Positions 3,431 through 42,900 of a DNA stretch of 43,382 bases are shown here, one piece after another. The stretch is from a virus. Position numbers and translations under genes: made by a program. The DNA lies in the IMG/VR virus record IMGVR_UViG_3300039098_000030, positions 1 to 43,382 of that record, one strand, 5' to 3'. The notes beneath the pieces are model-generated. The model worked only from the letters and a program-made list of their open reading frames with translations. It ran no database searches and was not told the DNA's origin. The first letter of the stretch is position 1; each line of letters begins with the position of its first letter.

Positions 3431-3528
3431 TTTTTATCCTTGTAATATTTTATTTTGTGTTTCTTTTTGACTGGTATAGCAACAACAAAACCATGTTTGT
3501 TTATTGCTAGTTTTACTCGTTTAACCAT
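3427..3528 (-). CDS. Small basic protein, 33 aa
   Basis: A short Lys-rich protein whose start overlaps the stop of the Gln-rich gene by 8 bp and whose stop overlaps the next start (ATGA). No recognised domain. It is supported only by the unbroken chain of overlaps. Confidence 0.45.
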   Translation of the reverse strand: MVKRVKLAINKHGFVVAIPVKKKHKIKYYKDKK

Positions 3529-3865
3529 TTTGAGTTGGTTGCATCGGATTACCGTTTGCATCTACATAAGTAGTCGGTGGTGGTTGATATGATTGTTGCT
3601 GCTGTTGAGGTTGTTGGTAGTTTTGTTGCTGCTGAGGTGCTTGATAGCTTTGCTGTTGTCCTTGCTGAGCATCATCATAAACAGTACACATTACCATATC
3701 TTTACCCTCTTCTCTTTTAAATGCTGCAAGATTAACAGTCGGATCTAAAAGTACATATTCTTTACCACTTTGTGATACTCCGATAACTCCAACTTTAACC
3801 CAGTTTGTTGCCTCTACACCATCTTTATTTATATATTTTCCGTTTGCTACACTAATTTTACGCAT
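3521..3865 (-). CDS. Single-strand-binding-like protein with Gln-rich tail
   Basis: About 60 N-terminal residues could form a small beta barrel (ISVANGKY, WVKVGVIGV, YVLLDP). They are followed by a disordered Gln/Pro/Tyr-rich tail (about 65-114). The globular-domain-plus-tail layout and the position next to ERF suggest an SSB-like function, but an OB fold cannot be proven by eye and the tail does not end in the acidic SSB tip. Start chosen at 3865 because GGGAG lies 6 nt upstream; the ATG at 3877 lacks this. The start overlaps the end of the HNH gene. Confidence 0.55.
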   Translation of the reverse strand: MRKISVANGKYINKDGVEATNWVKVGVIGVSQSGKEYVLLDPTVNLAAFKREEGKDMVMCTVYDDAQQGQQQSYQAPQQQQNYQQPQQQQQSYQPPPTTYVDANGNPMQPTQNG

Positions 3866-4376
3866 AATTTCTCCCATTTTTAATATTTAATATTGTTCTT
3901 TTTGAAACACCAAACTCTACTGCAAGTTTTATGCTTGACTCTCCATTTAAAAATCTTTTTGTTATCTCTTCATCTTGTTTGATGTTAAGCTTTCTTGATT
4001 TAAAAACCTTTCCTTTATTTGCTAATCCAACAGCTTTACATGATTTTCTTAATATTTTTTTATGCTCAGTTCCGTTTACTAGCGAATTTTTATTAGCATG
4101 AATACTATTTTCTTTATATGTAACCCATTCAAGATTATTAACATTGTTATTGCTTTTTACTCCATCTTTATGATTAACTACATTTTTATCATCATTGTTT
4201 TCAATAAATGCTTTAGCCACTAATCTATGAATGAAATACTTAGTTCCTTTTAATTTAACGGTAAAATATCCATTTCCATTAGATATGGGGGTTAGATATT
4301 TTTCTTTCTTGCAACTCCAAACTCTACCATCTTCACTAATAGAATACAATTCATTTAGATTTTCAATATATTTCAT
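3858..4376 (-). CDS. HNH homing endonuclease (NUMOD4-HNH-HTH)
   Basis: A 172-aa protein. Residues 1-25 match the NUMOD4 pattern (LYSISEDGRVWS). Residues about 45-95 form the HNH nuclease with HRLVAKAFI, NHKDG and NNLEW, as in I-HmuI-type enzymes. Residues about 135-171 look like a helix-turn-helix (LAVEFGVSKRTI). The start overlaps the stop of a 35-aa RHH gene (ATGA), so the two form a unit behind a palindromic promoter. It has inserted between the ERF-side genes and the Gln-rich gene, and its last codons contain that gene's ribosome binding site. Confidence 0.88.
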   Translation of the reverse strand: MKYIENLNELYSISEDGRVWSCKKEKYLTPISNGNGYFTVKLKGTKYFIHRLVAKAFIENNDDKNVVNHKDGVKSNNNVNNLEWVTYKENSIHANKNSLVNGTEHKKILRKSCKAVGLANKGKVFKSRKLNIKQDEEITKRFLNGESSIKLAVEFGVSKRTILNIKNGRNYA

Positions 4377-4480
4377 CTTATTGATTCCTCTATAACTTTC
4401 GCAATTGTTGTATCTTTATCAAGTGCTAATTGTTTTAGCTTTCTCCATAAAGCAACTGGAACTTTTATACTTTTATACAT
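4373..4480 (-). CDS. Ribbon-helix-helix regulator, 35 aa
   Basis: The protein starts with a KSIKVPV beta strand, followed by two helices ending in TIAKVIEESI, the classic minimal RHH (Arc/CopG/antitoxin-like) pattern. AAGGAG lies 8 nt before the ATG. It overlaps the HNH gene by ATGA, and a palindrome (4493-4514) covers its -10 box. It is probably an autorepressor that also limits the nuclease. Confidence 0.72.
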   Translation of the reverse strand: MYKSIKVPVALWRKLKQLALDKDTTIAKVIEESIR

Positions 4481-4492
4481 TCTAACTCCTTA

Positions 4493-4514
4493 GTAGAATT
4501 ATACACTATTCTAC
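4493..4514 (-). promoter_or_regulatory. Promoter with palindromic operator for RHH-HNH unit
   Basis: GTAGAAT (4493-4499) and ATTCTAC (4508-4514) are perfect inverted arms with an 8-bp spacer. The -10 TATAAT (minus strand, 4498-4503) lies inside. This is a likely binding site for the RHH protein directly downstream. No convincing -35 is present. Confidence 0.6.
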
Positions 4515-4821: not shown

Positions 4822-5514
4822 TTATTGACCTTTTAACCAATTCATAAACCCTTGAAAGTTTTGAGATTGTAATTGGTGCATCCCCTCTAAATTATTAGCT
4901 TTTGCAATAGCCATTATGTCGAAACCTTTTAGAGTTATTAAATTGGCTATCTCATCATACTGTGCTTTTGTGATTAGTTGTGGTGCGTTATTTGTTATAT
5001 TTCCACTTGCTTTATTCCCATCATCGTCTTCTTGCTCTAATCCTAAAACCGTTACAAGTTGGTATCTGCGAATATAAGTTAGTGCTGAACCTTGACCTTG
5101 ACTATCATCTTTTTTAAGTATCAAAGGCATAACACTTTCGATCATCTCACTTGGTTTATCTATATTTATTATTTGAGTTATTAAGTAGGTTTCATTATTA
5201 GAAACATCTGTTTTTTGAACTGATAATAAACCTGCATCTTTTAGTCTTGGAAGAACCTGCTCTAATACTGAATTAATATCAGCATATTTTGAGCCTTTAA
5301 AATATGCGTTTAATTTATCTTTACGAATAACCTCTACACTCTCTTGAAAGTCACTTAGTTTCTGATATATATTCTTAGTTGCATTAGCTGTCACTATCTC
5401 TTTATCAGCACTCTCTATGCTTTTAGTGGCTATCTCTAGTGATTTACTATTGTTAATTACTTTTTTGCCCTCTACACTCATTAGTGTATCGAACTCTTCA
5501 TCTTCTTTTTTCAT
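4822..5514 (-). CDS. erf: ERF-family single-strand annealing protein
   Basis: A 230-aa protein. Residues about 45-165 fit the ERF family: KYADINSVLEQVLPRL, then QGSALTYIRRYQLVTVLGL and an acidic EQEDDDGN. ERF proteins form rings on ssDNA and anneal complementary strands in phage recombination and genome circularisation. The first 40 residues are acidic and variable. It sits directly after the Gp157-like gene, the usual ERF/RecT neighbourhood. No partner exonuclease is adjacent; the VRR-NUC protein at 42508-42900 is distant. Confidence 0.88.
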   Translation of the reverse strand: MKKEDEEFDTLMSVEGKKVINNSKSLEIATKSIESADKEIVTANATKNIYQKLSDFQESVEVIRKDKLNAYFKGSKYADINSVLEQVLPRLKDAGLLSVQKTDVSNNETYLITQIINIDKPSEMIESVMPLILKKDDSQGQGSALTYIRRYQLVTVLGLEQEDDDGNKASGNITNNAPQLITKAQYDEIANLITLKGFDIMAIAKANNLEGMHQLQSQNFQGFMNWLKGQ

Positions 5515-19478: not shown

Positions 19479-20153
19479 ATGGAAACACTTCAAATACCTC
19501 GTTTAAAAAAATGCTCAAAATGTAAAGAAATAAAACAGCTAAGATTCTTTGAATTTAGAAAAGATAATCAAAAATATAGAAGTTGGTGTAAAAAATGCGA
19601 ATCAATAAGAAGTAAAAAATAGAGAGATTGTCAAGGTGATGTTTTATTAAAGAAAAAAAGAGATTTTAGGAAAAACAATCTTCAATTATTAAGAGATAGA
19701 GAGCGTGAATATCTACAGAAAAATAAAAAAGTAAGATATGAAAAAAATAAAGAATATAGAGAGATAAACAAGAAAAGCATATCAATTCAGAGAAGCTTAT
19801 ACTATTTTGAAAATAAAGAACTAATTAGAATAAAGACTAAAATACATAGAAAAACGGGTGCTTGCAAAATGAGTGATATTTCATCACATCACAAAAGAAA
19901 AGCATTAAAAATATCTACAGACGATGGTACAATTAATAAAAAGTCACTCGAGAGTTTACTTATTAAGCAAAATAACAAGTGCTATTATTGTGAATGTGTT
20001 TTAGTTGAAAAACACTTAGACCACTATATACCACTTTCAAAAGGTGGAGCTAATAGTATCTATAATGTAGTATGGAGCTGCCCATCTTGTAATCTCAAAA
20101 AAGGTGCTAAAGACCCTATAGAATTCGCAAACAATATAGGGAAACTTTTTTAG
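19479..20153 (+). pseudogene. HNH endonuclease interrupted by an amber codon
   Basis: One reading frame of 224 codons is open from ATG to the stop except for TAG at codon 48 (19620-19622). The N-terminal part has a zinc knuckle (CSKCKEIKQ...WCKKC), the middle is Lys/Glu/Tyr-rich, and the C-terminus is a full HNH domain: CYYCEC, HLDHYIPLSKGG, NVVWSCPSCNLKKG. This order is typical of free-standing phage HNH homing enzymes. TAG ends other genes here, so it is a real stop. ATG at 19869 could still yield a 94-aa HNH domain, with a weak ribosome site. It is the only plus-strand gene and ends 1 bp from the tail chaperone stop. Confidence 0.82.
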
Positions 20154-23769: not shown

Positions 23770-23798
23770 AATGACTCCTTAATTATTTGCAGTAGCGA

Positions 23799-24728
23799 TT
23801 AAGCTACTGTTACTTTTGCTTCAAGAGCATTTAAGAAATTGTAAGATGTAACAATCGGAGTACCATTCCAGTAACCAATTACTCTATCAACATTTCTATC
23901 ACCTACACTCATTTGTAAACGACTTGATTTATAGTTATAAAGTTCTGTTAAAACTCTAGGGTGCATATAAATAACCGTTGAGTTATTCCCTCTACAATCA
24001 AGTAAAAGTTTATCCATCGCTCTTTCAGTTGGAGGCTTTGGAGTATCATCATCTAAATCAATATTTACGATACCACTTACTAATTTGTGATTGTTAAGCT
24101 GAATACCAAGAGTTGATTTGATACGAGTACCATAACCAAGGATAGTTTTACTTCCTATTGTTTTCTCGTATAAAGCACCACCATTGATTGCTTGAATGTC
24201 AAAAACTTTACCGTTACCGTATGACTCTGGATCATATAAACCAGTGATTTCTCCACGCTTCCAAGTTACTGCAATAATAGAATAATTCACGGCACCCGTA
24301 CCACCAGCATCTTCTACATTGTCATTATCAATAGCAAAAGCACGAATGTTATTATAAAGAATTGCTTTTTCTACATCTTCACCCGTTTTACTAAGAATAG
24401 TAGGCATTTTGTTTGAGAAATAACTAGCTGCTCCACCTAATTTTTTAGCTTTATCTTCACCAACAAACATCGTACCACCAAGGATAGATAAATCTGTTTG
24501 TAATAGTTCGCTAGTTGTAGCGATTTCTGGAAGTTCATCATCAATATCAATCATACCAGCACCAGTTACATCACTTAGTTTTTCAAATACATTACTAAAT
24601 CCGTGAGTAGATGGTTGCATCGGCATCATTGCTAATATCGGAGCTTCCTCTAAAAGTGTATCAACCATTCCCGGCTGTTTACCTGAGTTCGCAATAGCTA
24701 ACTCTCTAAATAAATCTGTTACTGCCAT
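23799..24728 (-). CDS. Major capsid protein
   Basis: A 309-aa protein. The N-terminal DLFRELAIANSG, EAPILAMMPMQPSTHG and a central EDVEKAILYNNIRAFA match the GP7/P22-like group of HK97-fold capsid proteins usually found with DUF4055 portals. It ends in IVTSYNFLNALEAKVTVA. It is preceded by the scaffold gene and a dedicated promoter (25394), as expected for the most abundant protein. Confidence 0.9.
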   Translation of the reverse strand: MAVTDLFRELAIANSGKQPGMVDTLLEEAPILAMMPMQPSTHGFSNVFEKLSDVTGAGMIDIDDELPEIATTSELLQTDLSILGGTMFVGEDKAKKLGGAASYFSNKMPTILSKTGEDVEKAILYNNIRAFAIDNDNVEDAGGTGAVNYSIIAVTWKRGEITGLYDPESYGNGKVFDIQAINGGALYEKTIGSKTILGYGTRIKSTLGIQLNNHKLVSGIVNIDLDDDTPKPPTERAMDKLLLDCRGNNSTVIYMHPRVLTELYNYKSSRLQMSVGDRNVDRVIGYWNGTPIVTSYNFLNALEAKVTVA

Positions 24729-25469: not shown

Positions 25470-26483
25470 TTAGTAATTAAACAAACTATTACTATCAACC
25501 CCTAATTTTTTGAGTTCTTTAATTTTTTTATCTGAGTAAAAGTCTGTTGGTAATTTTGCATTTTTAGAAGAGTTACAACTTCTACACAATAGAACAGTAT
25601 TAGATAAAGTTAATCTTCCCCCTCTACTGAATGGTACATTGTGGTCTATTGTTAAATTATCAGTTCCATTACAGTTAAAGCACTTATTGTTAAATTTTTT
25701 AAATACTTCTTTTTTGTCTCTTGCACCAAAATTCTCTTTAATATCTGTTTTTCTTATTCTACCATTGTAACTTGCTCCGTTTACATAGTTTGGATGATTA
25801 GTACCACTAAATGCTTTAGATATTTTTTCTTTTCGTGATTCATCTGTCCTATAAAATTCGTGATGGCATTTTTGCGAACATACTTTTCTAAAAGGTCTAA
25901 CAATAGTAAACCCTTTTTTATTGTTAGATTTTCTATATTGAAACGCACAAAACAAAGTTTTACAAACTGCACAAATTAATACTTTATCTCTATTACTTCT
26001 ACATTCATCAGAACAATATATTTTTTTATATTTAAACTTATGTGATTCTCTAGTAACATCTTTGCCACAAATATCACATTTTTTTGTAAGATACTCTATC
26101 TTACTCCCATCTTTTTTTAATCCTTTTGAGTGATGTTCTAAATAACATTTTCTATCACAAAAAACATTTTTACTTTCAGTTCCATCCCTATTTTTACTCT
26201 TGGTTCTGGTTACATCTTTGTTACAATTTGCACATGGCTGAGACTTTATTTTTTTTGATGCTTTTGTTTGACAATCTTTGCCACAAAACTTTTGATTAAT
26301 ATGCTTTGATTTATATTCAATACTACAATACTCGCATATTTTTAATGGGGAATTTTCAGACTTCTTTTTATATTTGTTTTTATATTGACATTTTTTTGAA
26401 CAATATAATGCTCTTCCACTCTTTGTTTCAAATTTATCATTACAAACTAAACAGTTTTTTATAATCTTTGGAGAATTTTCCAT
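25470..26483 (-). CDS. Multi-zinc-finger HNH homing endonuclease
   Basis: A 337-aa protein. Five tandem zinc modules carry CxxC...CxxxC at Cys 11/14/28/32, 50/53/67/71, 84/87/109/113, 136/139/157/161 and 171/174/202/206. A NUMOD3-like segment follows (KISKAFSGTNHPNY, about 221-233). The C-terminal HNH domain has CFNC, IDHNVPFSRGG and LCRSCNSSKN (268-309). The fingers probably read a long DNA target. It sits between the minor head and scaffold genes as an inserted gene with its own promoter and leader, so it is likely a free-standing homing enzyme. Confidence 0.88.
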   Translation of the reverse strand: MENSPKIIKNCLVCNDKFETKSGRALYCSKKCQYKNKYKKKSENSPLKICEYCSIEYKSKHINQKFCGKDCQTKASKKIKSQPCANCNKDVTRTKSKNRDGTESKNVFCDRKCYLEHHSKGLKKDGSKIEYLTKKCDICGKDVTRESHKFKYKKIYCSDECRSNRDKVLICAVCKTLFCAFQYRKSNNKKGFTIVRPFRKVCSQKCHHEFYRTDESRKEKISKAFSGTNHPNYVNGASYNGRIRKTDIKENFGARDKKEVFKKFNNKCFNCNGTDNLTIDHNVPFSRGGRLTLSNTVLLCRSCNSSKNAKLPTDFYSDKKIKELKKLGVDSNSLFNY

Positions 26484-37105: not shown

Positions 37106-37759
37106 TTATATCCTTGCATTAAACTTTATACCATTAAATACTAGTGACTGCTCAAGATACTTTATATAGTCTTTATCATTAAGCCATTTATCTTTTCTTA
37201 GGAAGTCTAAGTGTTCATCAAGTGTTAAATAATAGTCGTGTAGTTCTCTATTGCTTCCAATTTCTATTATTTTTAACATATTTTTAGCTGTTAAATCAAA
37301 CCACTCTCCTGATAATCTCTTATTTTTAAAGGTCTTATGTAGTTCTGATTCTAAATTTATCGCATCCTTTACACTAAAGCTTGTAATTAAATCTATGTCG
37401 AATGGTATTTTTACTTCAAACCTTTTTAGTCTCTCTTTGATACTATTTGCTTTACCTATCTTATACTTAGTCGTGCCGTTATGTGTTCCTGATATTACAT
37501 ATACATAATTGAATTTATAAATCTCTGCAATAGCAAAAAACTTAACTGCCTCAATTACATATATATGCTTATCTGCTAACTCAAACATATTCTCTGCCCA
37601 TCTATTAGACCAAAAGGCTACTCCACCCTCTCTTTTGTCTACTAGTTCATTGAACAGCTTATATTGTTTTACTATATCATAGAATACAACTTTTGTTAAG
37701 TCTGTTTTATTGTTTAGTCTGCAATGGTAAAATGGTTTTTTTAATTTGTGTGATTTCAT
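37106..37759 (-). CDS. GIY-YIG nuclease-like protein (T5orf172/MUG113 type)
   Basis: A 217-aa protein. Residues about 84-160 match the T5orf172/MUG113 branch of the GIY-YIG superfamily: YVYVISGT, YKIGKA, IKERLKRF, ESELHKTFKNKR and GEWFDL. The N-terminal 80 residues have no recognised domain; the C-terminal 55 are helical and may bind DNA. It is a solo gene with its own promoter and hairpin leader between small early genes and terS, so a mobile or homing gene is plausible. Confidence 0.8.
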   Translation of the reverse strand: MKSHKLKKPFYHCRLNNKTDLTKVVFYDIVKQYKLFNELVDKREGGVAFWSNRWAENMFELADKHIYVIEAVKFFAIAEIYKFNYVYVISGTHNGTTKYKIGKANSIKERLKRFEVKIPFDIDLITSFSVKDAINLESELHKTFKNKRLSGEWFDLTAKNMLKIIEIGSNRELHDYYLTLDEHLDFLRKDKWLNDKDYIKYLEQSLVFNGIKFNARI

Positions 37760-38230: not shown

Positions 38231-38388
38231 TTAAGGCTCTCTCTAGTGTCGTAGTTGTAGGCTTTTACATAGATAACCCAAAGGCTTTCAAGTCCTTTGC
38301 TGTGTCTTTGTTTTAGTTGGTGCATTGCTTGTATTGTCTTGTTGAAATGCTTTGCTAGTATTTTGTGGTCTATGTTTATGTTAGTCAT
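38227..38388 (-). CDS. Hypothetical protein, 53 aa
   Basis: A basic, helical protein with HQLKQRHSKGLESLWVIY, no recognised family. It overlaps the 152-aa gene by 8 bp and the methyltransferase fragment by 4 bp. It may mark the junction of a deletion that removed most of the methyltransferase. Confidence 0.5.
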   Translation of the reverse strand: MTNINIDHKILAKHFNKTIQAMHQLKQRHSKGLESLWVIYVKAYNYDTRESLK

Positions 38389-38839
38389 TTTTAAGTATCC
38401 ATTCACAAGCTTTTATAATTGACTCAGGCTCGGTTTCTGCACCCTCATAAGGATATGGCTTAAAAGGTTCTTTTGTTATCCATATGTGCTCACTTTTGTA
38501 ACTTGCAAGTTGAAACCCTTTTTTGTATGCCCATTCTTTACATCTATGTGCTAGTCTATAAACATCTATGTTGTTCTTTGAGACAAAATCGCAATTTGAC
38601 TCATGCGCTTCATCTTTTGCTATTCCAAAACTTGCATTATATTTATAATTTACAGCTAAAGCATTATCCCATACTTCTATAATATCTAACTCTAAAACAT
38701 CACTAAGCAATTCAACACTGATTAAATCTTCTTCATCCATTGCATTTTCCTTTGTTATTTTATTCATTTCAATTACATAGTCATCAAGCGAAATCCGTAG
38801 ATTTATAGAAAAATCCACAAGGTCTTGACATGTTTTCAT
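38381..38839 (-). CDS. Hypothetical protein, 152 aa (paralogue of 40726-41079)
   Basis: No named family. It shares three blocks with the 117-aa protein at 40726-41079: LIS-x-ELLS near the start, CKEW-x-x-K-K in the middle, and E-x-IIKA-EW at the end. It is longer by about 35 N-terminal residues. The fold is probably a small alpha/beta domain. Both copies lie in early operons. The role is unknown; host takeover is a guess. Confidence 0.68.
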   Translation of the reverse strand: MKTCQDLVDFSINLRISLDDYVIEMNKITKENAMDEEDLISVELLSDVLELDIIEVWDNALAVNYKYNASFGIAKDEAHESNCDFVSKNNIDVYRLAHRCKEWAYKKGFQLASYKSEHIWITKEPFKPYPYEGAETEPESIIKACEWILKND

Positions 38840-40014: not shown

Positions 40015-40257
40015 CTAATCGCACTTCCAAAACAAACAATAAAACTCTTCTGGTGGTAACGATTGACCAGCGTTTTCAAACTTAACTCTTAAATCCCTAT
40101 ATGTGCTACAAACTTTATCTTCTTGCTTTAATAATCTGCAATTGTTGCATCTATCTGGATCTTTATCTATTTCTGAAACCATAAAAGGTTCTATCTCTTC
40201 TATCACTTCAAACTTATCTGATTCTACGCTCTCTTTGTTGTATGTATTTGCTAACAT
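40015..40257 (-). CDS. Cys-rich hypothetical protein, 80 aa
   Basis: Five cysteines in the C-terminal half: CNNC (37-40), C at 50, and two more (about 74, 79) suggest zinc or iron-sulfur binding. The N-terminus is acidic. The start overlaps the HNH-type gene by 1 bp. No family recognised; it may be an accessory of the neighbouring nuclease-like gene. Confidence 0.6.
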   Translation of the reverse strand: MLANTYNKESVESDKFEVIEEIEPFMVSEIDKDPDRCNNCRLLKQEDKVCSTYRDLRVKFENAGQSLPPEEFYCLFWKCD

Positions 40258-40589
40258 TATTTTTCCTTTTTGTATTGATTGTATAATTTTTCAGCATTTT
40301 CCAACTGAACTTCAATAGGGTATGCCTCACGAAACATTTTAGGTGTCCCATGTGCTGATAAAATTGCACCGTTTCTATGGCATTCTTCACCACAAAGCAT
40401 GATAATTTTTCTATCATCTTTTACATCTGTTGAGAATTGCTTTATATGATGGCATTCAAGCTTATTTTGTTTACCACACGCAAAGCAAAAAATATCACTT
40501 TGATTATGAAGCCAACTTAAGTATTTCGGCTCTTTTGGTGCTTTAGGTCTCAATCTGTTATGCTTGACTTTTTTATTTAACATGTTCAT
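40257..40589 (-). CDS. HNH-like zinc protein (Ref/DUF968-type)
   Basis: A 110-aa protein with CFACG (about 35-39), CHHIKQF (about 46-52), CGEECHR (about 66-72) and a C-terminal helical region. The C-x2-C...HH...C-x3-CH order resembles DUF968/Ref-type HNH proteins of phage recombination regions. Probably a small DNA endonuclease or DNA-binding protein of early recombination. The start overlaps the preceding 25-aa ORF. Confidence 0.68.
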   Translation of the reverse strand: MNMLNKKVKHNRLRPKAPKEPKYLSWLHNQSDIFCFACGKQNKLECHHIKQFSTDVKDDRKIIMLCGEECHRNGAILSAHGTPKMFREAYPIEVQLENAEKLYNQYKKEK

Positions 40590-40666: not shown

Positions 40667-40739
40667 GTAAATATACTCCTATACTTATTACTATTATTGC
40701 TAAAATGAAAAAAGTTATTTCTAGGTTATCTTGTTTCAT
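40659..40739 (-). CDS. Tiny membrane ORF, 26 aa
   Basis: One hydrophobic helix (FFILAIIVISIGVYL) with a short N-terminus. It overlaps the 117-aa gene by 14 bp. Phage early regions often carry such one-helix peptides. The call rests on the unbroken overlap chain and clear hydrophobic pattern. Confidence 0.45.
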   Translation of the reverse strand: MKQDNLEITFFILAIIVISIGVYLHE

Positions 40740-41079
40740 TTTGAGCCTTTACCCATTCTGTGGCTTTGATTATTGCTTCTAGTTCTGTACTTGCTTCAAA
40801 AGAATTAGTTTTAAAATCTATGTTTTGAACTGTTGCAATATATATATTTTCTCTTTTGCTAAAAATATCCCATCCACTAGAAATGCTCCACTTTTTTGCT
40901 TTACACCACTCTTTACAAAATATTCCCAATGTATCCAAATTTAAAATATCATTTCTTTTTGTGAAGTGGTCTAAAATCAAGAAATAATTAAAATGTAAGT
41001 CGTTACTAAAAGTATCTAATTCTACTACTTTAATTTTCAATATCTCACTTAACAACTCTTTACTAATTAAATTATTCAT
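40726..41079 (-). CDS. Hypothetical protein, 117 aa (paralogue of 38381-38839)
   Basis: Shares ELLSEILKIKVVELD, CKEW-x-KAKKW and ELEAIIKATEWV with the 152-aa protein. Start chosen at ATG 41079, which overlaps the upstream TGA (TGATG); a GTG one codon earlier is possible. Unknown function; the duplication suggests a dosage or partner-specific role in early infection. Confidence 0.68.
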   Translation of the reverse strand: MNNLISKELLSEILKIKVVELDTFSNDLHFNYFLILDHFTKRNDILNLDTLGIFCKEWCKAKKWSISSGWDIFSKRENIYIATVQNIDFKTNSFEASTELEAIIKATEWVKAQNETR

Positions 41080-41228
41080 CACTTACTCCCTATCATATTA
41101 GCGATTTCCGTCATAAGATTGTCTTTTAATCGCTTAAACATATCTCTTAATTGATGGTTCTCTTTTTGTAATCTGGTTATCTGTTGTGACTGTTGGTACA
41201 CTAGGTTTATTAGTTGCTTTTTTTTCAT
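41079..41228 (-). CDS. Coiled-coil protein, 49 aa
   Basis: Basic start then heptads (LINLVYQQSQQITRLQKENH) giving a short leucine-zipper-like coil. Linked by ATGA to the GIY-YIG gene and by TGATG to the next gene. Could oligomerise or bind DNA; no family. Confidence 0.5.
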   Translation of the reverse strand: MKKKQLINLVYQQSQQITRLQKENHQLRDMFKRLKDNLMTEIANMIGSK

Positions 41229-41596
41229 TTGTTGTCCTTTTTAATTAACATTATTAAATAGCCTCTGAGTGTCATTCCTAGTTTTCTAGCCTTATCTTTT
41301 GCAATCGCATGAATATCATCTTCTAATTGAACAATCTTCATTCCTTTTTGAGACTCATAAACTTTTAATCTTTTACCTGTTTTTATCTCAGCTCTTCTTA
41401 TATTAAGTTTTGGATTAAATAAAAGTATATAAGCCTCTTCTGTTGAGTTTAAAAGATTTTTGCAACATTCAATACTGATATAATTAGTAAAATCTTTTCC
41501 ATCTTTTTTATGAGCTTTTATTCTATTTTTAATATCAACTGATTGTCCAACATATACCACTTCATCATCTTGTTGTAATAAATAAACACCAATCAT
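41225..41596 (-). CDS. GIY-YIG nuclease fused to RHH-like C-terminus
   Basis: A 123-aa protein. Residues 2-80 are a GIY-YIG domain: GVYLL (GIY), VVYVGQS (YIG), the Arg in NRIKAHKK, and TEEAYILLFNP with the catalytic Glu. Residues about 85-123 (MKIVQLEDDIHAIAKDKARKLGMTLRGYL) resemble an RHH or related DNA-binding tail. The start overlaps the stop of a 40-aa RHH gene (ATGA). Probably a small homing or mobile nuclease. Confidence 0.82.
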   Translation of the reverse strand: MIGVYLLQQDDEVVYVGQSVDIKNRIKAHKKDGKDFTNYISIECCKNLLNSTEEAYILLFNPKLNIRRAEIKTGKRLKVYESQKGMKIVQLEDDIHAIAKDKARKLGMTLRGYLIMLIKKDNK

Positions 41597-41715
41597 TTAT
41601 ACGCCTTTATCAAAAGTAAAATAGTATCTGATAGTGACTTACTCTCAGTATCTATTTTAATTTTTTGAAGTTCTTTATAAACATCTTTAAAGATTTTCAT
41701 TGTAACTTTATCCAT
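41593..41715 (-). CDS. Ribbon-helix-helix regulator, 40 aa
   Basis: DKVTMKIFKDVYKELQKIK followed by SLSDTILLLIKAY fits a minimal RHH fold (strand, helix, turn, helix). AAAAGGATTT lies upstream of the ATG. It overlaps the GIY-YIG gene by ATGA, and its promoter holds a palindrome (41735-41750). Likely autorepressor of the pair. Confidence 0.65.
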   Translation of the reverse strand: MDKVTMKIFKDVYKELQKIKIDTESKSLSDTILLLIKAYK

Positions 41716-41734
41716 TTTTTTAAATCCTTTTAGT

Positions 41735-41750
41735 GTAGTAATTATACTAC
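41735..41750 (-). promoter_or_regulatory. Promoter/palindrome of RHH-GIY-YIG unit
   Basis: GTAGTA-ATTA-TACTAC, 6-bp inverted arms with a 4-bp centre, covers the -10 TATAAT (minus, 41741-41746). The site overlaps the end of the upstream gene (41742). A 14-of-16 match occurs at 42441-42456 over another -10 box. Confidence 0.6.
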
Positions 41751-42194
41751 TTTTTTACTTAATCCATAATTATAATGGCATTTTTCAAACTCTATATTTT
41801 CTATCAATAGATTAGTTACTTTCAAGCTACTCATATTATATTGTCCGTTGTATTCTAAACCATCAAACCCATCTCCAAAACCTTTTAAATACTTATCATT
41901 GAAGTTATAATATTTCTTTAGTTCTGGCATTTTAAACATGAACGACCTAATCATTCTATTGATAGTTATTCCCACTGCATCACTTTTTAATATAGTGCTT
42001 TTATATGCTTTATCAGCTATTCTTACATGCTGTAACCATCTATCATAAGACTTGTTTCTAATTGGTGCTATCTTGGTTTTAATGCGTCTTAGTATGTGTT
42101 GAATATTTTTGTCTTTCATTTTCTCTTCATTACTAAACTCATCTAAAAAAGCCATCATCATAAACCCTACACATATTCTGTTATCTATTAACAT
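41742..42194 (-). CDS. Hypothetical protein, 150 aa
   Basis: Basic and helical in the middle (IQHILRRIKTKIAPIRNKSYDRW), no recognised motif, no membrane segment. TAAGGAAAATAA precedes the start. It is the second gene behind the operator at 42441, upstream of the RHH-GIY-YIG unit, whose promoter lies in its last codons. Confidence 0.65.
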   Translation of the reverse strand: MLIDNRICVGFMMMAFLDEFSNEEKMKDKNIQHILRRIKTKIAPIRNKSYDRWLQHVRIADKAYKSTILKSDAVGITINRMIRSFMFKMPELKKYYNFNDKYLKGFGDGFDGLEYNGQYNMSSLKVTNLLIENIEFEKCHYNYGLSKKVV

Positions 42195-42210: not shown

Positions 42211-42420
42211 TCAAAGTAAATCCATTACTTGTTGTTTAATTTCACTATTGTAGTCGTAATCTTCATAACCTCTTTCAATGTCTTTTATTTTCTCAACTAA
42301 AACTGATATTTCATCAATTATTGGCTCTATGTCGGAATTAAAATTATCAAGCATACTTTCATCTTTATCTATTCCTCTGTAATAAGCGTTTAAACTCTCT
42401 TCAACTGCACATCTACTCAT
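42211..42420 (-). CDS. Hypothetical acidic protein, 69 aa
   Basis: An acidic helical protein without recognised domains. AAAGGACAACAAT precedes the ATG. Its promoter contains a copy of the RHH-type palindrome, so it may belong to the same regulon as the RHH-GIY-YIG pair. Confidence 0.6.
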   Translation of the reverse strand: MSRCAVEESLNAYYRGIDKDESMLDNFNSDIEPIIDEISVLVEKIKDIERGYEDYDYNSEIKQQVMDLL

Positions 42421-42440
42421 ATTGTTGTCCTTTATTTGAT

Positions 42441-42456
42441 ATAGTAATTGTACTAC
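42441..42456 (-). promoter_or_regulatory. Second copy of the RHH-type palindromic promoter
   Basis: The 16 bases match 41735-41750 at 14 positions and keep TAGTA...TACTA arms with a 4-bp centre. The -10 on the minus strand is TACAAT (42447-42452). The same regulator could act here and at 41735. Confidence 0.5.
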
Positions 42457-42507
42457 TTATAGTATATATAATCAAGCTATTATTTTAATATTATTTAGTA
42501 TGATTGA

Positions 42508-42900
42508 TTAAGTGTTACTCATATACTCATCAATAATCTCAATAGTTTCTTTTAAATGTGTTGCAAAAGTCACGAAATAGCCCTCATCTCTTAACCGTTG
42601 ATGATACTTAGCTTGTTTCTCTAAATGCTTATCTTTTTTTAGTGTTCTTCCATCTTTTAAGTAGGGTGAAGTTATTTTAAGTTCAATCATTAGTGCGTGA
42701 TAATACTTATTAGCCTTGTAGAGAGTTAAATCTGGAAAACCCGACCCATTCTTCCCTTGTAACTTTTTATGCTTTGTGGCTTGTCCTATGGACATCTTGA
42801 AACCACTTGCAAAATCGAATCTATATATTACTTTTGGGTATCTTAATTGTAGATAGTCTGATACATCTTGACTTAGGTCGCTTTCAGAGTATTTTTTCAT
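42508..42900 (-). CDS. VRR-NUC domain nuclease
   Basis: A 130-aa protein. SESDLSQDVSDYLQLRYPK at the start, GSGFPDLTLY (about 52-61) with catalytic Asp, and ALMIELKI (about 68-75) with the E-x-K pair fit a stand-alone VRR-NUC nuclease. Such proteins occur in phage replication or recombination regions and act on branched or flapped DNA. The start abuts the methylase stop. Confidence 0.85.
   Translation of the reverse strand: MKKYSESDLSQDVSDYLQLRYPKVIYRFDFASGFKMSIGQATKHKKLQGKNGSGFPDLTLYKANKYYHALMIELKITSPYLKDGRTLKKDKHLEKQAKYHQRLRDEGYFVTFATHLKETIEIIDEYMSNT

Follow-up and report, generated by a model that had tools for sequence, protein, structure and literature searches.

In this report, we describe a compact minus-strand operon of a tailed phage in which a 40-aa ribbon-helix-helix (RHH) gene overlaps a GIY-YIG nuclease gene, the nuclease itself ends in a second RHH unit as judged by sequence, and a palindrome over the -10 box of the operon recurs as a near-copy farther upstream. 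We tentatively read this layout as an autorepressed, free-standing, homing-like nuclease cassette whose RHH tail would dimerise the enzyme and target it to DNA, a reading in which our confidence falls somewhat short of even. The window, that is, the whole stretch of 43,382 nt that was analysed, is part of a 44.6-kb virus record. The nearest relatives found were two virus fragments (G001 and G002), with terminases 67-69% identical, and a scan of genome contigs with the terminase returned zero relatives; terminase matches at 46% identity in Helicobacter pullorum prophages hint at a Campylobacterota host for the phage. The features of the operon and its surroundings are the following.

41593-41715, minus strand: gene for a predicted RHH autorepressor of 40 aa; residues 6-38 match Pfam PF02697 (VAPB_antitox) at E 2.6e-5
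41225-41596, minus strand: GIY-YIG nuclease, 123 aa; PF01541, E 1.8e-5, above cut-off
41228-41347, minus strand: RHH tail, residues 84-123 of the nuclease; stand-alone homologue in G001 and hhalign profile match
41079-41228, minus strand: 49-aa predicted coiled-coil gene, weak SlyX-like match; its start and the nuclease stop share 4 bp
40726-41082, minus strand: 118-aa gene that begins with GTG; 4-bp overlap with the 49-aa gene
41734-41751, minus strand: operator-like palindrome GTAGTA-TAAT-TACTAC (GTAGTANNNNTACTAC / GTAGTATAATTACTAC, 41735-41750; extended form AGTAGTATAATTACTACA) covering the RHH gene's TATAAT box
42440-42457, minus strand: near-copy of the element, AGTAGTACAATTACTATA, 16/18 bases, with TACAAT at the -10 position; the ATG of a 69-aa gene follows after 19 nt
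42211-42420, minus strand: the 69-aa gene behind the near-copy

An earlier note on this DNA had proposed that a 40-aa RHH gene precedes the GIY-YIG gene and overlaps it by ATGA, and both the coordinates and the Pfam matches (PF02697 and PF01541) bear this out. The order of genes is 40-aa RHH, GIY-YIG, 49-aa and 118-aa, with a 4-bp overlap at each junction; the 49-aa gene is presumed to belong to the same operon as RHH and nuclease, and no partner methyltransferase gene adjoins the pair. The 118-aa gene is paralogous with another gene for a small protein at 38381-38839 (34% identity, E 2e-11). The 40-aa protein scores 25.3 bits against PF02697, just below the curated cut-off of 27.9, and a six-frame search with the same model recovered its gene at E 1.9e-5; VAPB_antitox is an RHH family. 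By this strand-helix-helix profile match the protein is placed in the RHH (MetJ/Arc) superfamily, and its core takes up all 40 residues, leaving zero residues past it and no toxin-binding tail. The protein had no relative in the phage collection, and a home-made profile from eight RHH cores was powerless, missing even a Pfam-recognised RHH protein of 35 aa, and is uninformative here.

The nuclease consists of a catalytic domain (about residues 1-65), a linker and the RHH tail (about residues 84-123). It carries the GIY and YIG motifs and the catalytic Tyr, Arg, Glu and Asn of the GIY-YIG superfamily, and its match to the group I intron endonuclease model TIGR01453 (E 9.2e-8) lies under the cut-off. 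Because these catalytic residues are kept, and Y5, Y15, G17, R25, E53 and N65 are invariant in an alignment with six relatives, the enzyme looks catalytically intact, with the reservation that catalytic residues do not prove activity. No NUMOD match was found in the 123-aa protein, which thus falls outside the 'orthodox' GIY-YIG homing endonucleases, defined by a C-terminal NUMOD (PMC1564403). The nuclease tail had no Pfam RHH match, and that it is RHH by sequence, as had been suggested from its appearance, was upheld by two lines of evidence. The related phage G001 encodes, between methylase/HNH genes and terminase genes, a free-standing protein of 41 aa that is 40% identical to nuclease residues 84-123, and a profile of three tails, aligned with seven known RHH repressors and antitoxins, gave an hhalign probability of 82 (E 1.1e-5) and a score of 26.3, against a maximum of 12.4 among 100 column-shuffled profiles. 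On this evidence the tail is assigned to the RHH (MetJ/Arc) superfamily. No relatives came from viral or genome contigs scanned with the nuclease by itself or with the RHH tail alignment.

The palindrome over the -10 box, which the earlier note had also pointed out, was confirmed at 41735-41750, where the window has its single exact match to GTAGTANNNNTACTAC, with TATAAT at its centre on the minus strand; it lies 18 nt before the ATG of the RHH gene, and its left half doubles as the last codons (KVV-stop) of an upstream 150-aa gene. The -35 box of this promoter is poor. A palindrome equally good is expected by chance in a 60-nt leader with P ~0.16 (dinucleotide model), and the window shows no excess of inverted repeats with 6-bp arms, which number 128 against 155-184 in simulations; as stand-alone proof of regulation the palindrome was therefore dropped as within chance. 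Its operator-like character is backed by the near-copy at 42440-42457: since this copy agrees at 16 of its 18 bases, shares the strand and lies at a like distance from a start codon, and only 0.015 copies this good are expected per window, the element stands above chance, and palindrome and near-copy together are probably a real regulatory element. No third copy was found in the 44.6-kb record. A separate palindrome, CAGTAGC-TTAATC-GCTACTG at 23790-23809, lies between two structural genes and is probably a terminator; its GTAG/CTAC arms are common to the RHH-gene element, by chance or otherwise.

A second RHH-nuclease pair lies near the other end of the window.

4373-4480, minus strand: RHH gene, 35 aa; PF20605, E 0.0028; PHROG 2639 (Arc-like repressor), E 3.6e-4; ATGA overlap with the HNH nuclease
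3858-4376, minus strand: NUMOD4-HNH-HTH homing-type endonuclease, 172 aa; PF13392, E 3.7e-9, and PF07463, E 8.5e-8; matches to homing endonuclease models
4493-4514: inverted repeat GTAGAAT-AGTGTATA-ATTCTAC (N8 spacer) spanning the 35-aa RHH gene's TATAAT box

By Pfam, the GIY-YIG and HNH nucleases belong to unrelated superfamilies, as had been proposed, and the two RHH proteins are mutually dissimilar; two different nucleases behind two such RHH genes fit the suggestion that the arrangement was assembled twice in this genome. In six-frame searches of the record, PF02697 and PF20605 each recovered one gene, namely the two RHH genes that abut nucleases, and PF01402 (RHH_1) recovered none. Inverted repeats are likewise present in the leaders of the G001 and G002 RHH genes, and the leader palindromes of the four RHH genes have P values of 0.16, 0.06, 0.16 and 0.06, each within chance alone and together ~0.02 by Fisher's method, a value that makes autoregulation likely but falls short of proof. 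In G002, the RHH gene (53 aa; 1426-1647 of locus L084) heads an early operon, with TTGACAA...TTGTCAA across its promoter and without a nuclease. The 35-aa RHH-HNH pair lies between ERF (4822-5514) and a gene in the SSB position (3521-3877, without a Pfam match), and unrelated nucleases thus occupy similar positions beside recombination genes, the HNH pair here and GIY-YIG pairs before ERF or annealing-protein genes in Vibrio phages. Other nuclease-type genes in the window are MUG113/T5orf172 (37106-37759), HNH (19869-20153), HNH with NUMOD3 (25470-26483) and VRR-NUC (42508-42900); with a possible HNH gene at 40257-40589 (without a Pfam match) and the two RHH-paired enzymes, the phage has about seven nucleases among about 75 genes.

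To survey the arrangement elsewhere, we combined 14 phage records from a tblastn search with the nuclease, 53 GIY-YIG loci from a viral-contig scan and other fetched loci into 37 clusters at 50% identity, the window not being counted. The full layout was repeated in one of them: in Vibrio phage 1.085.O (98% of the query, E 8e-9), a 47-aa RHH-like ORF overlaps by 4 bp a GIY-YIG gene with an RHH-like tail, which is followed by ERF. This ORF is RHH by pattern only, with 9 of 100 shuffles scoring equally high, and its leader has no palindrome. An upstream RHH gene was absent in most clusters, many of which have an N-terminal extension instead, and the DNA-binding part varies elsewhere in the family. 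In other Vibrio phages, small ORFs overlapping the nuclease are RHH-like by eye and not clearly above shuffles; in Pseudoalteromonas phage Pq0, an XRE protein accompanies the nuclease; and in several Vibrio and Pseudoalteromonas phages the nuclease stands immediately before ERF, an annealing protein or SSB. Matches on plasmids have only the nuclease domain in common. The 57-aa ORFs that precede four GIY-YIG genes (the L030 group) were dropped as RHH candidates, resembling coiled coils. For the HNH enzyme, an RHH ORF was found upstream in 0 of 10 relatives, and scans of viral and genome contigs gave zero relatives. The idea of a general RHH-plus-nuclease system is thus not supported by this neighbourhood survey. 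No paper on such an arrangement turned up in a literature search that combined GIY-YIG and ribbon-helix-helix, and the 2006 survey of the GIY-YIG superfamily lists as partners NUMOD, HTH and wHTH, the word 'ribbon' being absent from it (PMC1564403).

Our data suggest a model whereby the 40-aa RHH protein would dimerise and occupy the GTAG...CTAC palindrome that covers the -10 box of its gene, probably together with the near-copy 700 bp upstream, so that the RHH-nuclease-49aa-118aa operon would be shut off after a brief burst. The GIY-YIG domain would then cut DNA, and the RHH tail would dimerise the nuclease and aim it at a site different from that of the repressor; we infer a homing-endonuclease-like action on the DNA of competing or co-infecting phages. 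A precedent for such self-limitation is I-TevI, which acts as its own repressor by binding an operator that covers its late promoter (PMC2988022). The RHH assignments of repressor and tail, the repeated element, the conserved catalytic residues, the match to the intron endonuclease model, the layout of Vibrio phage 1.085.O and the leader repeats of RHH genes in related phages speak for the model; the poor -35 box, palindromes that are each within chance and the lack of one in Vibrio phage 1.085.O speak against it. The relatives yielded no empty site, because these have only terminase, portal and one more gene in common with the window and no common flanks.

Several other explanations have to be weighed against this model. 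It is possible, if unlikely, that the RHH protein acts as a general, Cro/Arc-like repressor of an early operon, in which the nuclease is a passenger with a task in the recombination or DNA processing of the phage instead of homing. Such a role would suit the Vibrio and Pseudoalteromonas phages, where the nuclease follows a small DNA-binding ORF (one of XRE type) and has ERF, annealing-protein or SSB genes immediately after it, as well as the location of the HNH pair between ERF and the SSB-position gene and the fact that the element recurs in front of a gene with no relation to the nuclease; however, the GIY-YIG operon of the window is distant from ERF, and each of the two unrelated nucleases comes with an RHH gene and promoter of its own. 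We consider it rather improbable that nuclease genes merely landed next to resident small RHH genes with no functional link. Stand-alone small RHH genes are present in related phages, from which the adjacency may have come in this way, and the scarcity of upstream RHH genes among HNH relatives and in most GIY-YIG clusters points in the same direction; against this, both RHH genes detectable with the two family models abut a nuclease by ATGA (rough chance 0.01 with about seven nuclease genes among about 75, calculated post hoc), and the layout recurs in a distant Vibrio phage.

We give little credence to a type II toxin-antitoxin pair, with RHH as antitoxin and the nuclease as toxin, for which gene order, overlap, an operator suggestive of autoregulation and a top Pfam match to an antitoxin family would speak. 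RHH antitoxins neutralise their toxins via a C-terminal segment, but the 40-aa protein stops at its second helix and has no such segment; moreover, the nuclease has a DNA-binding tail of its own, like targeted enzymes, and the RHH protein had no PADLOC match. Equally doubtful is the proposal, raised as a possibility by the earlier note, that tail and repressor form mixed dimers or bind a common operator; the two would then act as one regulatory unit. RHH domains require a partner, and two RHH units occur per operon here and probably also in Vibrio phage 1.085.O; yet similarity between the 40-aa protein and the tail-bearing nuclease is undetectable, the residues expected to face DNA from the strand (aligned to CopG) are M, I and Q in the tail versus K, T and K in the repressor, a residue-level reading that is itself inferential, and a nuclease cutting its own operator would harm the phage. 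The proposal is thus left without support, and more improbable still is a variant in which repressor and tail swap partners, the mixed dimers either tethering the nuclease to the operator or keeping it away until entry into a new cell dilutes the repressor.

If the model of an autorepressed nuclease cassette is true, it would describe a GIY-YIG nuclease aimed by an RHH domain, a pairing that the superfamily survey does not name (PMC1564403), and provided with an RHH autorepressor of its own, and it would offer a second route, besides I-TevI, by which a phage nuclease limits itself. A close parallel is the pair NVP1085O_34 and _33 of Vibrio phage 1.085.O (MG592460.1), which has the RHH-like ORF, the 4-bp overlap and the RHH-like nuclease tail but differs in the adjoining ERF and in lacking a leader palindrome. 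Repressors and antitoxins of the Arc/CopG/VapB type belong to the fold family to which the 40-aa protein and the tail of the nuclease are assigned, whereas here RHH is fused to, or encoded with, a GIY-YIG nuclease, and the free protein is without an antitoxin tail. In type II restriction-modification systems, the gene for the C protein, a small autoregulator, precedes and overlaps the nuclease gene, an order and overlap also seen here; C proteins are helix-turn-helix proteins that control a nuclease paired with a methyltransferase, in contrast to the RHH protein described here, which with its nuclease forms a pair that no partner methyltransferase gene adjoins. I-TevI and other GIY-YIG homing endonucleases, including the free-standing Seg enzymes of T4, are alike in being phage proteins with an N-terminal GIY-YIG domain and a C-terminal DNA-binding part; their tails are built of zinc finger, NUMOD or HTH elements instead of the single RHH unit found here, and while I-TevI represses its own promoter, in this intron-free operon a separate upstream RHH gene would act as the repressor.
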